Shown: positions 19,107 through 23,177 of the stretch, in pieces
Position numbering within the stretch: position 1 is the stretch's first letter
How the letters are laid out: each line of letters begins with the position of its first letter
Origin: Halomarina rubra
Lineage (GTDB): Archaea > Halobacteriota > Halobacteria > Halobacteriales > Haloarculaceae
Direction: 5' to 3'
Length of the DNA stretch: 64,000 bases
NCBI RefSeq assembly: GCF_023699475.1
Contig: NZ_JALXFV010000008.1
Location: 815,818-879,817 of the forward strand
Program-made: the position numbers and the translations under genes
Notes under the pieces: generated by a model
Told to the model about the DNA's origin: nothing
Database searches by the model: none
Seen by the model: only the letters and a program-made list of their open reading frames with translations

Positions 19107-20114
19107 TCAGCGTGCCCGACGGACGAGGAACGCCAAGCCGAGTAGTGCGGCGAAGGCTACGCCCGGGACGACGACCGGTACTCCCCCGACCTCGTTCCCG
19201 TCGCTCGCCCGTTCGAAGAACCCCGGTCGGTCGACGCTGCTGTTCTCGTACCGATAGGCGTCTTCGCTCCACGGCCCTTCGATAGCCGTGTACGACTCGT
19301 TCCACGTGCTCGTAGTCCCGTTGACTCGACCCTCGAACCCGACCTGATCGATGCCTCCGCTACTGTCGTTCAGGTCGTACGCGTACAGACGGGCCTCGCC
19401 GACGACGACCGAGTCGGGGTCGTCGAGGAGTTCGACGGTTACGTTTGTAGACTCGCCAGGGTCAGCAGTTGGTAGATACAGACTCCCATCGGTCCCTGAG
19501 GTATGTACCATCAACTTCGTTGGGTAGCGTTGGTCTGATGGATTTGTCACAGTGATATTCACGACTACTGATTTCTCACCGTCGATACTGCCGCTTGAAA
19601 CGCTCGTGTCTGCAATATAGGGTGTTGGCACGGTGGTTGAGTTTGTGGCATCGATTTCACGAGTGAACGTGAAACTTCGTGCAGCGCCATAGGTGGACAC
19701 TCTAATTTCGTGCGATGTCTCAAGCGCGTTGAGCGCCGACTGGATTTTTATTGTCGTGTTCGAGGTTTCGCCGGAACCTAATTGATGATTTGTATTACGG
19801 ATAGTTGCACCATCTACGGTCACAGATACCCCTGAATATTGCCGACTGCTTGTCGGGTTTGTGGCTTCAATTGTGAGATTATGGCCGTCGTTATTGAAAT
19901 ATAGTTTGTACTGAATTCCGAATTCAGAGACCATCTCTTTCTCTGTAGATAATTCGAGTGAACCCTTCGTATCCTCAACACCGATTGCTACGGAACTGGT
20001 GATGAGTCCAGTGGCAACTAGCAATACTATGGTAAATCTCCCAATCAGCCGCATAATCTTCCTGCTCACCTCCGTATTTAAATTACTTTCTTTTAGAAAC
20101 GAAGATAGACTCAT
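19107..20114 (-). CDS. Membrane-anchored surface protein with N- and C-terminal hydrophobic segments
   Basis: A 335-residue protein with an N-terminal signal/anchor helix (about residues 22-46, RFTIVLLVATGLITSSVAIG) and a C-terminal transmembrane helix (about 309-331) followed by RRAR, so most of the chain is probably extracellular. The ectodomain is Ser/Thr/Asn-rich and beta-type, with many potential N-glycosylation sites (NLT, NTT, NST, NVT, NGT, NSS). The ATG overlaps the upstream frame's stop by four bases, tying it to the split PKD protein. The N-terminal half is markedly AT-rich (19861-19920 has 23 G/C in 60). I do not recognise a named family. Confidence 0.75.
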   Translation of the reverse strand: MSLSSFLKESNLNTEVSRKIMRLIGRFTIVLLVATGLITSSVAIGVEDTKGSLELSTEKEMVSEFGIQYKLYFNNDGHNLTIEATNPTSSRQYSGVSVTVDGATIRNTNHQLGSGETSNTTIKIQSALNALETSHEIRVSTYGAARSFTFTREIDATNSTTVPTPYIADTSVSSGSIDGEKSVVVNITVTNPSDQRYPTKLMVHTSGTDGSLYLPTADPGESTNVTVELLDDPDSVVVGEARLYAYDLNDSSGGIDQVGFEGRVNGTTSTWNESYTAIEGPWSEDAYRYENSSVDRPGFFERASDGNEVGGVPVVVPGVAFAALLGLAFLVRRAR

Positions 20115-21919
20115 TGGCTTCCCTCCGTTTCACGCGTTCGTTCCTCGATTTCGTCCTCGCCTACGACACCCCGACCCACGAACTCGGTCGTGAACTCGTC
20201 GACCACTTTTCCGGTCTTGAATCCCGCGTTGCTCGTGCGGTATCGGATGACGTCACCGCTGACGGTCGCACGCGTCTCGACCACCATGCTCTCTGCGGTG
20301 TACGCTGGTCTGACGACGTGGTCGGTCACCTGACGTTCCATCGTCCAGTGGCGGGTCGTTCGCTCCGACCCGATTCGGACGTCGGCGCTTGCCGATGCCA
20401 GCCGTCTCGCACTCTCTTCGTCGGAGACTGTGGTGTAGTGCTGCCACTCGTATCGAGCGGGTTGAACGACAGTCGTGTGCTCGGCGACGTACGTCTTGTC
20501 GACATCGACGTCCCAACTCACGTACTCGTGGCGGTACTCCGTCGTGTACTCCGCCGGATCGGTGAGTGTGCGTCGAACGTCCCCGGTCGCCGAGTGACTG
20601 TTCGACACTCTCGACTGCGCCCAGTAGGTGTGGGTCTTCTTCCGCGTTACGAGACGGGTGTAGGTCTTCTCGTAGCAACCAATGCCAGGTAGGCACTGGC
20701 GGGTCGTCGTCTTCTCCGGTTCGAGTTCGGTCGTCGTATACTCGTACTCGCGTTCGACGCTGTACTCTGCAGCGTCCGTCTTCACTCTCCGACTCTCGCC
20801 GGTGAACGCGTACCCACGCGTTCGCTTCCACGAGACGGTCGTCTCTTGCGTTCGGGTACGAGTCGTCCGCACGCCGGCCTGCCGCCACTCAGGATGGACC
20901 CGCAGAAACGTTCGACGGTACGACGACGAACCGAACGTCCGGGTGTCCGTCTGTACGATTTCGTTCTGTGTTTTGACGCGCTGCTGGAGCACGTAACCGG
21001 TCGTCTCACTCCTCGTCCCCGCAACGTGGTACCCCGAGTTACGTAACTGAATCATCTCGGCACGAGTGTCTACATCGACGGTATCGACGCTCCGTTCTCT
21101 GATCAGGTACCGAACGTCCGAAACTCGGAAGCCGGAGCGTTCAGTCCGCTGTGCTTCGGTGAGTTCGATTGTCGGCAGTGAAGTTGCCTCGCGAGCCATC
21201 TGAGGCCGTGCCTCGTTGTACAGCACGATTCGCGAGTCGTTGTTCGCGAGCGCACTGGCGGGGAGTTTGACCGTGCCTCTGAACAAGAACTCGTTCTCCT
21301 CGTCGGTTGAGACGCTTTTCCATTCGGCTACACGTCCTGGTGCTCCTCGTAACTCTGCTCCAACACTGAGGGATGCAGTGTTTCGCTGGAAGACGACTCG
21401 CTGTGTTTCGATTTGGATAGATACGGTGTCATCTGGCCCGAATGGCTCTTTTCCTTCGATGGTAGTACTCGATACCTCTGGGACGAACGCATCTCTTAGG
21501 TCCCAGTTGTGCTTGACTTCGTTTCCGTATCCATCTCGCAGTACTAGCCGCCCAGACTCCCACGCATCGAGACGTGCAACCTCTCCAGATTTCGTAGTCG
21601 GTTCTGCTTGCAGTTCCCAGCCGAATCGAAGGCGGCTGTCGTCAGGGTCGAACGAATCGCTCGCGTTGACGATAATCGGCTCCGTGAAATCGATGGGCCG
21701 CTGAGGAACACCTTCTGGGCCATTAATTTCCGCCCCGTCGTTCCGCATCGTAAGTCGAAGTTCGGGTTCACTTGGGGTTACCCTGAATTTAGACGTGGAA
21801 TTCACTGAGATTGAGCCATAGTTTAGATTATCGAATTTCCAGGTATAACCGATAATGTGGGGATTGTGATTGTTTGGAGTTTCACCCCCCCCAGTAGGTG
21901 TGAATTGTTGCGATGCCAT
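20111..21919 (-). CDS. Frame-shifted C-terminal portion of a PKD surface protein, with internal repeats
   Basis: About 602 codons follow the first ATG of this frame, but that ATG lies inside the upstream PKD frame and is probably not a real start. Removing one G from the eight-G run at 21885-21892 joins the two frames. A second PKD-like domain is seen about residues 80-140 (VNASDSFDPDDSRLRFGWEL). A Thr/Arg/Tyr-rich region then holds two related units about 70 residues apart: TGESRRVKTDAAEYSVEREY and TGDVRRTLTDPAEYTTEYRH, each preceded by a Trp. Two cysteines flank CLPGIGC. There is no transmembrane segment; the next gene supplies one. Whether this is a broken gene, a phase-variable gene or a sequencing artefact cannot be decided here. 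Confidence 0.6.
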   Translation of the reverse strand: MASQQFTPTGGGETPNNHNPHIIGYTWKFDNLNYGSISVNSTSKFRVTPSEPELRLTMRNDGAEINGPEGVPQRPIDFTEPIIVNASDSFDPDDSRLRFGWELQAEPTTKSGEVARLDAWESGRLVLRDGYGNEVKHNWDLRDAFVPEVSSTTIEGKEPFGPDDTVSIQIETQRVVFQRNTASLSVGAELRGAPGRVAEWKSVSTDEENEFLFRGTVKLPASALANNDSRIVLYNEARPQMAREATSLPTIELTEAQRTERSGFRVSDVRYLIRERSVDTVDVDTRAEMIQLRNSGYHVAGTRSETTGYVLQQRVKTQNEIVQTDTRTFGSSSYRRTFLRVHPEWRQAGVRTTRTRTQETTVSWKRTRGYAFTGESRRVKTDAAEYSVEREYEYTTTELEPEKTTTRQCLPGIGCYEKTYTRLVTRKKTHTYWAQSRVSNSHSATGDVRRTLTDPAEYTTEYRHEYVSWDVDVDKTYVAEHTTVVQPARYEWQHYTTVSDEESARRLASASADVRIGSERTTRHWTMERQVTDHVVRPAYTAESMVVETRATVSGDVIRYRTSNAGFKTGKVVDEFTTEFVGRGVVGEDEIEERTRETEGSQ

Positions 21920-23177
21920 CACTAGAAGATAGAGCGGACTCTGAAATCAATCTGGTCTTGCCCGGTTTCTGTGCAAAGTGATTTACTCGAATGTCATCTA
22001 CCGAGTTACCGTTCAGTTCGATCTTCATCACATGGTGAGCAGTGTATCGGCCCGGGTCGATTCGTGAATGGTACGAGTCGACGGGTCCGTTGACGAACTC
22101 CGCGGAGATCGTCTCCGGAGGGGCAACGGGGGTGACCGTTCGCCTCACCGTCGTCTCCTGTCCTCGGTTGTCAGTCGCGGTGACGACGAGTTCGTACTCG
22201 CGACCGGGTTCGATGTCGTCCCAGTCGAACGTCACCTCGTCGCTCGACCCCTCGGTGGCGACGCGTTCGGTTCCGAGTCCCTCGACCGTGACGGACACCG
22301 AGTCGAGATTGCCGTACTCGTCGGTCGCTGACGCGGTCCCGCCGATGCGTTGGCGGCGTTCGAGGTTCGCGAGCGTCACGTCCGGCTTCGGGTCGGCGAC
22401 GACGCCCGTCGCACCGTCCTCGAACGTGGCTATCTCGGTCCGACCGTCGGAGTACGTCACCGCTGCGCGGAGCGTGTGATTTCCAGGGGCGAAGGTCAAG
22501 TCGGTCGTCGTCCCGGACGACCGGGCGGTTCCGTCGACGCGCCACTCGACTCGGTCGACGCTGCCAGCGGTGTCGACCGTGTAGCTCGCTTCGAGCGGCC
22601 GGTCGCCGGTGACCAGCCGAGGGCCACGGATCGTCGGCGAACGAGTGACCGTTGGCGTCGCCGTCCCGGTCGTTGGCGTCGCCGTCGGTGTGGTCGTGGT
22701 CGACGGTGGCGCGGGCGGTGCGGGAGACGAAGGATCGGACGTCGTCGCGGTCGGTGGAGCAGACGCCGTCGAGGTCGGTACGGGCGTCGGTGTCGATGGC
22801 GTCGACGTCGAACGCGGGCCGACGCCGACGTCGACGTACAACGAGTCCGACGCGGTCTCGCCCGCGTCGTCCGTCACAGTCAGCGTGACGACGTATCGCC
22901 CCGGTTCGCGTGCCAGGAACGACGTCCTCGGGTCCGTCGGATCTCTCGGTGTGACGACGTCGCCAGCAGGGGTCTCGATGCGCCACTCGTAGCCGACGAC
23001 GGTGCCGTCGGGGTCACGTGACCCCGTCCCGTCAAGGAAGACGGTCGTGTCGCGTTCGACCGTCTGATCGAGTCCAGCGTCGGCGAGCGGTGCGCCCGTT
23101 CGATCGACGTCGGCCAGTACGACTCCCGGAGCGGCCGTCGCGAGGAGGACGGCGACTAGCAGTGCCAACTGTCTCAT
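21882..23177 (-). CDS. PKD-domain secreted protein, N-terminal portion ending at a frameshift
   Basis: A 431-residue frame with a Sec signal peptide (MRQLALLVAVLLATAAPGVV, cleavage likely after LAD). A PKD domain spans about residues 31-117 (TVFLDGTGSRDPDGTVVGYE ... YVVTLTVTDDAG). A Ser/Thr/Pro linker (121-183), likely glycosylated, follows, then two Ig-like segments (184-350). The frame ends abruptly at TYWGG-stop, immediately after TGG GGG GGG. With seven G instead of eight the frame continues into the downstream 600 residues. The 3' end is AT-rich relative to the start. It probably encodes a cell-surface or S-layer-associated protein. Confidence 0.7.
   Translation of the reverse strand: MRQLALLVAVLLATAAPGVVLADVDRTGAPLADAGLDQTVERDTTVFLDGTGSRDPDGTVVGYEWRIETPAGDVVTPRDPTDPRTSFLAREPGRYVVTLTVTDDAGETASDSLYVDVGVGPRSTSTPSTPTPVPTSTASAPPTATTSDPSSPAPPAPPSTTTTPTATPTTGTATPTVTRSPTIRGPRLVTGDRPLEASYTVDTAGSVDRVEWRVDGTARSSGTTTDLTFAPGNHTLRAAVTYSDGRTEIATFEDGATGVVADPKPDVTLANLERRQRIGGTASATDEYGNLDSVSVTVEGLGTERVATEGSSDEVTFDWDDIEPGREYELVVTATDNRGQETTVRRTVTPVAPPETISAEFVNGPVDSYHSRIDPGRYTAHHVMKIELNGNSVDDIRVNHFAQKPGKTRLISESALSSSDGIATIHTYWGG
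21885..21892 (-). repeat. Homopolymeric G8 tract at the frame junction
   Basis: Eight consecutive G (C on the plus strand) sit exactly where the upstream PKD frame stops and the downstream frame continues. Loss of one G fuses the two frames into one protein of about 1,020 residues. Confidence 0.9.

Follow-up and report, generated by a model that had tools for sequence, protein, structure and literature searches.

In the 64,000-nucleotide window analysed here, a stretch of contig C15 in the 4.07 Mb, 16-contig assembly of a Halomarina species, a gene for a PKD-domain surface protein is split into two frames by a single surplus base in a run of eight G (21885-21892, minus strand), in an order where every other strongly matching copy that we found is read in one frame. 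Our preferred explanation, to which we give roughly an even chance, is a recent, strain-private +1 slippage that inactivated this one gene.

The upstream half (21882..23177, minus strand) is an open reading frame of 431 amino acids comprising an N-terminal signal peptide (by inspection of the translation), a PKD domain, a Ser/Thr/Pro linker and Ig-like segments. The PKD domain occupies residues 34-117 (22827..23078, minus strand), with Pfam matches to K319L-like_PKD (E 9.4e-16) and PKD_4 (E 4.3e-12) spanning residues 29-117. A preliminary description made from the sequence had this frame ending at TGG GGG GGG TGA, and that is borne out: the 3' end reads CAC ACC TAC TGG GGG GGG TGA (...HTYWGG*). 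The downstream half (20111..21883, minus strand) lies in the +1 frame relative to the upstream half and is open for 590 codons from 21883 to 20114, closing with TGA at 20113-20111. No Pfam family matched its 590 residues above cut-off, and structure prediction of the C-terminal region gave a mean pLDDT of 36.6 and no usable fold. When the tract is read as G7, the two halves become a single protein of 1,021 residues, where about 1,020 had been anticipated. Alignment to one orthologue runs in frame -3 up to the G tract and in frame -1 from the tract onward, is colinear across it and leaves a surplus of exactly one base, so the description of a PKD gene split by one extra G at this position stands. 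The run by itself is unremarkable: it is the sole G/C run of eight within the window, and dinucleotide shuffles of the window contain 3.06 such runs on average. What counts is that it falls precisely where the frame breaks.

Comparison with close relatives, which the preliminary description had suggested, places the interruption in context. The orthologue is one uninterrupted ORF of 1,008-1,063 codons in all seven other Halomarina genomes. When 392 genomes of the order were searched with a profile built on the C-terminal region, 65 gave strong matches (E <= 5e-30): four congeners, 60 genomes outside the genus and the window copy. The 60 carry single frames of 993-1,204 codons; the longest open frame of the window copy is 611 codons, and it is the sole split copy among the strong matches. 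Its match to the family profile, C-terminal region included, is nonetheless unequivocal (E 1.0e-271). The window gene thus has the signal peptide and PKD domain that mark the N-terminus of this Halobacteriales family of ~1,000-1,200 amino acids, and its C-terminal region of ~600 residues is present and conserved but lies in another frame than the PKD half. The split is private to the window assembly.

The gene is also part of a conserved arrangement. Immediately downstream lies a partner gene (19107..20114, minus strand) encoding 335 amino acids with a signal peptide and a C-terminal membrane anchor (by inspection), whose first codon overlaps the split gene's stop (ATGA) both in the window and in H. 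oriensis. Orthologue and partner are kept as a two-gene unit in all Halomarina (the window and L003-L009), and the partner matched no Pfam family above cut-off. The locus draws attention to a secreted protein of haloarchaea that is widely conserved and uncharacterised and has a conserved neighbour. If the break is an ordinary lesion, its main bearing is on annotation, where the gene belongs as one frameshifted PKD protein instead of two proteins.

The origin of the tract can be traced in the motif that surrounds it. The junction falls inside H-[ST]-[YF]-W-[AS]-G, a conserved motif that can be read in every congener and, with small variations, in six of the seven more distant copies inspected. 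The codon following TGG is GCT, GCG, GCA or GTA in congeners and GCN, AGC or TCA in other genera, and a glycine codon comes next in nearly all copies. Frame-corrected, the window junction reads HTYW-G-G-E. No G run occurs at the homologous position in the seven congeners or in the six more distant copies where the motif could be read, so a G7 tract is private to the window lineage.

Under the slippage reading, the locus would encode a single haloarchaeal PKD protein, secreted and ~1,021 residues long, in which an Ala-to-Gly substitution in the HTYW-A-G motif (TGG GCN GGT to TGG GGG GGT) would have created a private G7. In the sequenced strain, replication slippage would then recently have put in one more G (G7 to G8). 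Translation would stop at the TGA directly after the tract, yielding a 431-residue secreted fragment that retains the PKD domain and lacks the conserved C-terminal 590 residues. For the partner gene, joined through the ATGA junction, translation would probably be uncoupled too, and may drop when ribosomes halt at the tract. Such an indel would be a loss of function, possibly arising in culture and not necessarily fixed, rather than an evolved switch; as an event it is of an ordinary kind. Some considerations count against this reading: haloarchaea acquire indels rarely, at 4.75e-11 per site per generation, and with a bias to deletions (PMC9997560), and the genome carries both MutS and NucS genes. 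Every congener keeps the gene, which further lowers the expectation of its loss.

If the lesion is real, it must be young, since the downstream half shows no decay. We found no second stop or frameshift in it. At columns invariant in the other copies, the window copy departs at a rate of 0.14 (4/28) in the first 150 columns of the downstream half and of 0.11 (10/95) in the remainder, close to the 0.00-0.13 of intact copies and without clear excess. Divergence is concentrated at third codon positions, as it is between intact pairs. In a protein tree of the downstream half, the two closest unbroken copies stand 0.57 and 0.61 from the node that they share with the window copy, whose own branch measures 0.69; in the upstream half its terminal branch equals that of its sister (0.42 and 0.41). 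The gene has the intact orthologues and private disruption of a recent pseudogene, with no sign of the further decay that follows a break. This is what would be seen if the break were very recent, or if there were no real lesion.

A separate feature of the region is that over the ~150 residues past the tract (window 21430-21880) identity to the two nearest congeners is as low as 35-38%, where those two match each other at 60%; upstream, all three share 57-59%. Such a pattern could come from a recombinant patch or from faster change in this part of the gene. Recombination was considered as a cause of the frame break and rejected: the GC dip past the tract is common to all orthologues, and recombination leaves the break unexplained.

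The main rival reading, also compatible with an undecayed gene, is a consensus or assembly error, in which the chromosome carries G7 and an intact gene for 1,021 residues, and the eighth G is a poly-G artefact of the draft assembly. We consider this quite possible, if short of probable. The intactness of the gene in every relative argues for it, as does a published rule of thumb that BLASTp-validated singleton frameshifts should mostly be sequencing errors (PMC3711429). To set against this, an audit of 864 kb of the window genome aligned with 1.6 Mb of one congener gave 226 gene matches at >=45% identity, representing 225 distinct reference genes. Among these 225 other reference genes (202 kb of coding sequence) there was no further true frameshift, so genome-wide homopolymer error as a general feature was rejected. 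The continuous alignments of that 202 kb contain 311 G/C runs of 5-7, all in frame (271 G/C5, 35 G/C6 and 5 G/C7). Apparent frameshifts resolved on inspection into antisense shadow ORFs, 5' extensions and, in one case, two adjacent ABC-transporter ATPase genes matched to a fused reference. An apparent split at a G7 (C15:478457) proved to be where a phosphoglycerate kinase gene ends normally and an acetyltransferase gene comes next (names from translations).

Longer tracts give a more mixed picture of the assembly. There are 123 G/C7 runs genome-wide and 12 sites of eight or more G/C, and the window gene holds a single-base break at one of these. Two other coding runs, both C8, are in frame, one (L018) in a double TatC protein and the other (L013) in a membrane protein, which weighs against the error reading. 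The former tract lies within a long protein resembling two fused TatC translocase units. Three of the 12 sites lie within about 60 bases of N gaps (L011, L019 and L022, at C1:127495, C10:532406 and C12:293483). With N gaps numbering 8 per 800 kb, this overlap is far above random placement and marks tracts of this length as the weakest spots of the assembly, which favours a local error. The assembly is thus generally clean, but its long G/C tracts coincide with gaps above expectation. Neither the window nor the vicinity of the split site contains an assembly gap, and this tells against the error reading. The remaining sites are non-genic or at the margins of genes. No G tract in the genome is longer than a G10 (L014, C9:326430-326439), which seems to sit in the gap separating two convergent genes and is thus neither at a promoter nor in a coding frame. 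We also considered selection against G8, and set it aside: run counts over 800 kb (1,184 G/C5, 197 G/C6 and 26 G/C7) fall roughly geometrically, with neither special avoidance nor enrichment.

Of the four causes originally listed for the break (phase variation, frameshifting during transcription or translation, a recent pseudogene and a sequencing error), the list itself was right, but phase variation and programmed frameshifting find no support: none of the relatives examined carries the tract, and every other copy checked is unbroken. A recent private indel and a consensus error remain, as the tract is unshared, the other copies are in one frame and the other long tracts break no genes that we found. 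That either a G7/G8 surface-protein switch or leaky +1 slippage at GGG_UGA, giving some full-length protein, is at work here is unlikely, and each deserves consideration in turn.

Phase variation, with switching between G7 (on) and G8 (off) at high population frequency, is improbable. In its favour, the protein is of the secreted or surface type, the 8-G tract sits exactly at the break and a one-base change mends the frame. Several observations oppose it. Firstly, the tract is absent from all other copies examined and, as far as the alignments indicate, neither conserved nor recurrent at the site in relatives; two congeners do have a G7 in another part of the gene, where it reads in frame as plain Gly-Gly codons. 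Secondly, no set of contingency loci is visible, because each of the remaining long G/C tracts is non-coding, in frame or beside a gap: across the 12 sites no other gene-breaking coding tract was found, the three at N gaps being unjudgeable. Thirdly, a survey of homopolymers found long A/T tracts toward the 5' end of genes and G/C tracts without such placement (PMC2831843), and the tract here lies 42% into the gene. The presence of the mismatch-repair genes also speaks against frequent switching. Were tract length nevertheless to vary within clones, the locus would bear on poly-G contingency switching in archaea.

Recoding, either by a +1 ribosome slip on GGG_UGA or by polymerase slippage on the G tract to give some full-length protein, is more doubtful again, and we regard it as very improbable. 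By inspection and from general knowledge, GGG before UGA would let the P-site tRNA-Gly re-pair on GGU, and GGGGGGUGA could pair with the anti-Shine-Dalgarno end of 16S rRNA, so that the site resembles that of prfB in outline. Such a slip is chemically plausible. Programmed frameshifting is known from archaea, a haloarchaeal myovirus is reported to have a +1 event (PMC8211752), and the downstream half is undecayed. A conserved shift site is, however, a defining feature of programmed frameshift cases (PMC3711429, Table 1), and here the site is unconserved across homologues, with every other copy in one frame; nothing observed at the locus requires recoding. Should either the switch or the recoding prove true, it would, on a brief literature search, be without precedent among haloarchaea, whether as a homopolymer-based switch or as +1 recoding of a host gene.

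That the downstream frame is a separate gene is scarcely credible: the only candidate starts nearby (GTG/ATG at 21922/21919, within 21917..21922, minus strand) do open a 603-amino-acid ORF, but they fall within coding sequence of the upstream half and, by inspection, have neither a Shine-Dalgarno-like sequence before them nor a signal peptide after them, for which reason it was fair to say that this frame has no credible start of its own, and all homologues are fused.

Returning to slippage or error in a single gene, the window locus can be placed against four known systems. It shares the length range and C-terminal region of haloarchaeal PKD-domain secreted proteins (~1,000-1,200 amino acids), which are uninterrupted in the 60 genomes outside the genus, in contrast to the interrupted window copy. 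As in homopolymer contingency loci (poly-G in Neisseria and Campylobacter, and poly-A in Listeria inlA; PMC2831843), tract length sets the frame of a surface gene, but the window tract is unconserved, a single locus and of borderline length. Like the +1 frameshift of RF2 (prfB), the site combines a slippery codon before UGA with a Shine-Dalgarno-like sequence (by inspection), but it is unconserved, there is no spacing between the Shine-Dalgarno-like run and the site, and its product is putative. It also resembles the singleton frameshifted genes of GeneTack (PMC3711429), which, like the window gene, show one frame transition and intact homologues, with no other family member carrying the break, and which its authors attribute to indel mutation or sequencing error; the window gene differs from these in that its break is tied to a named homopolymer and that the flanking assembly has been audited for frameshifts.
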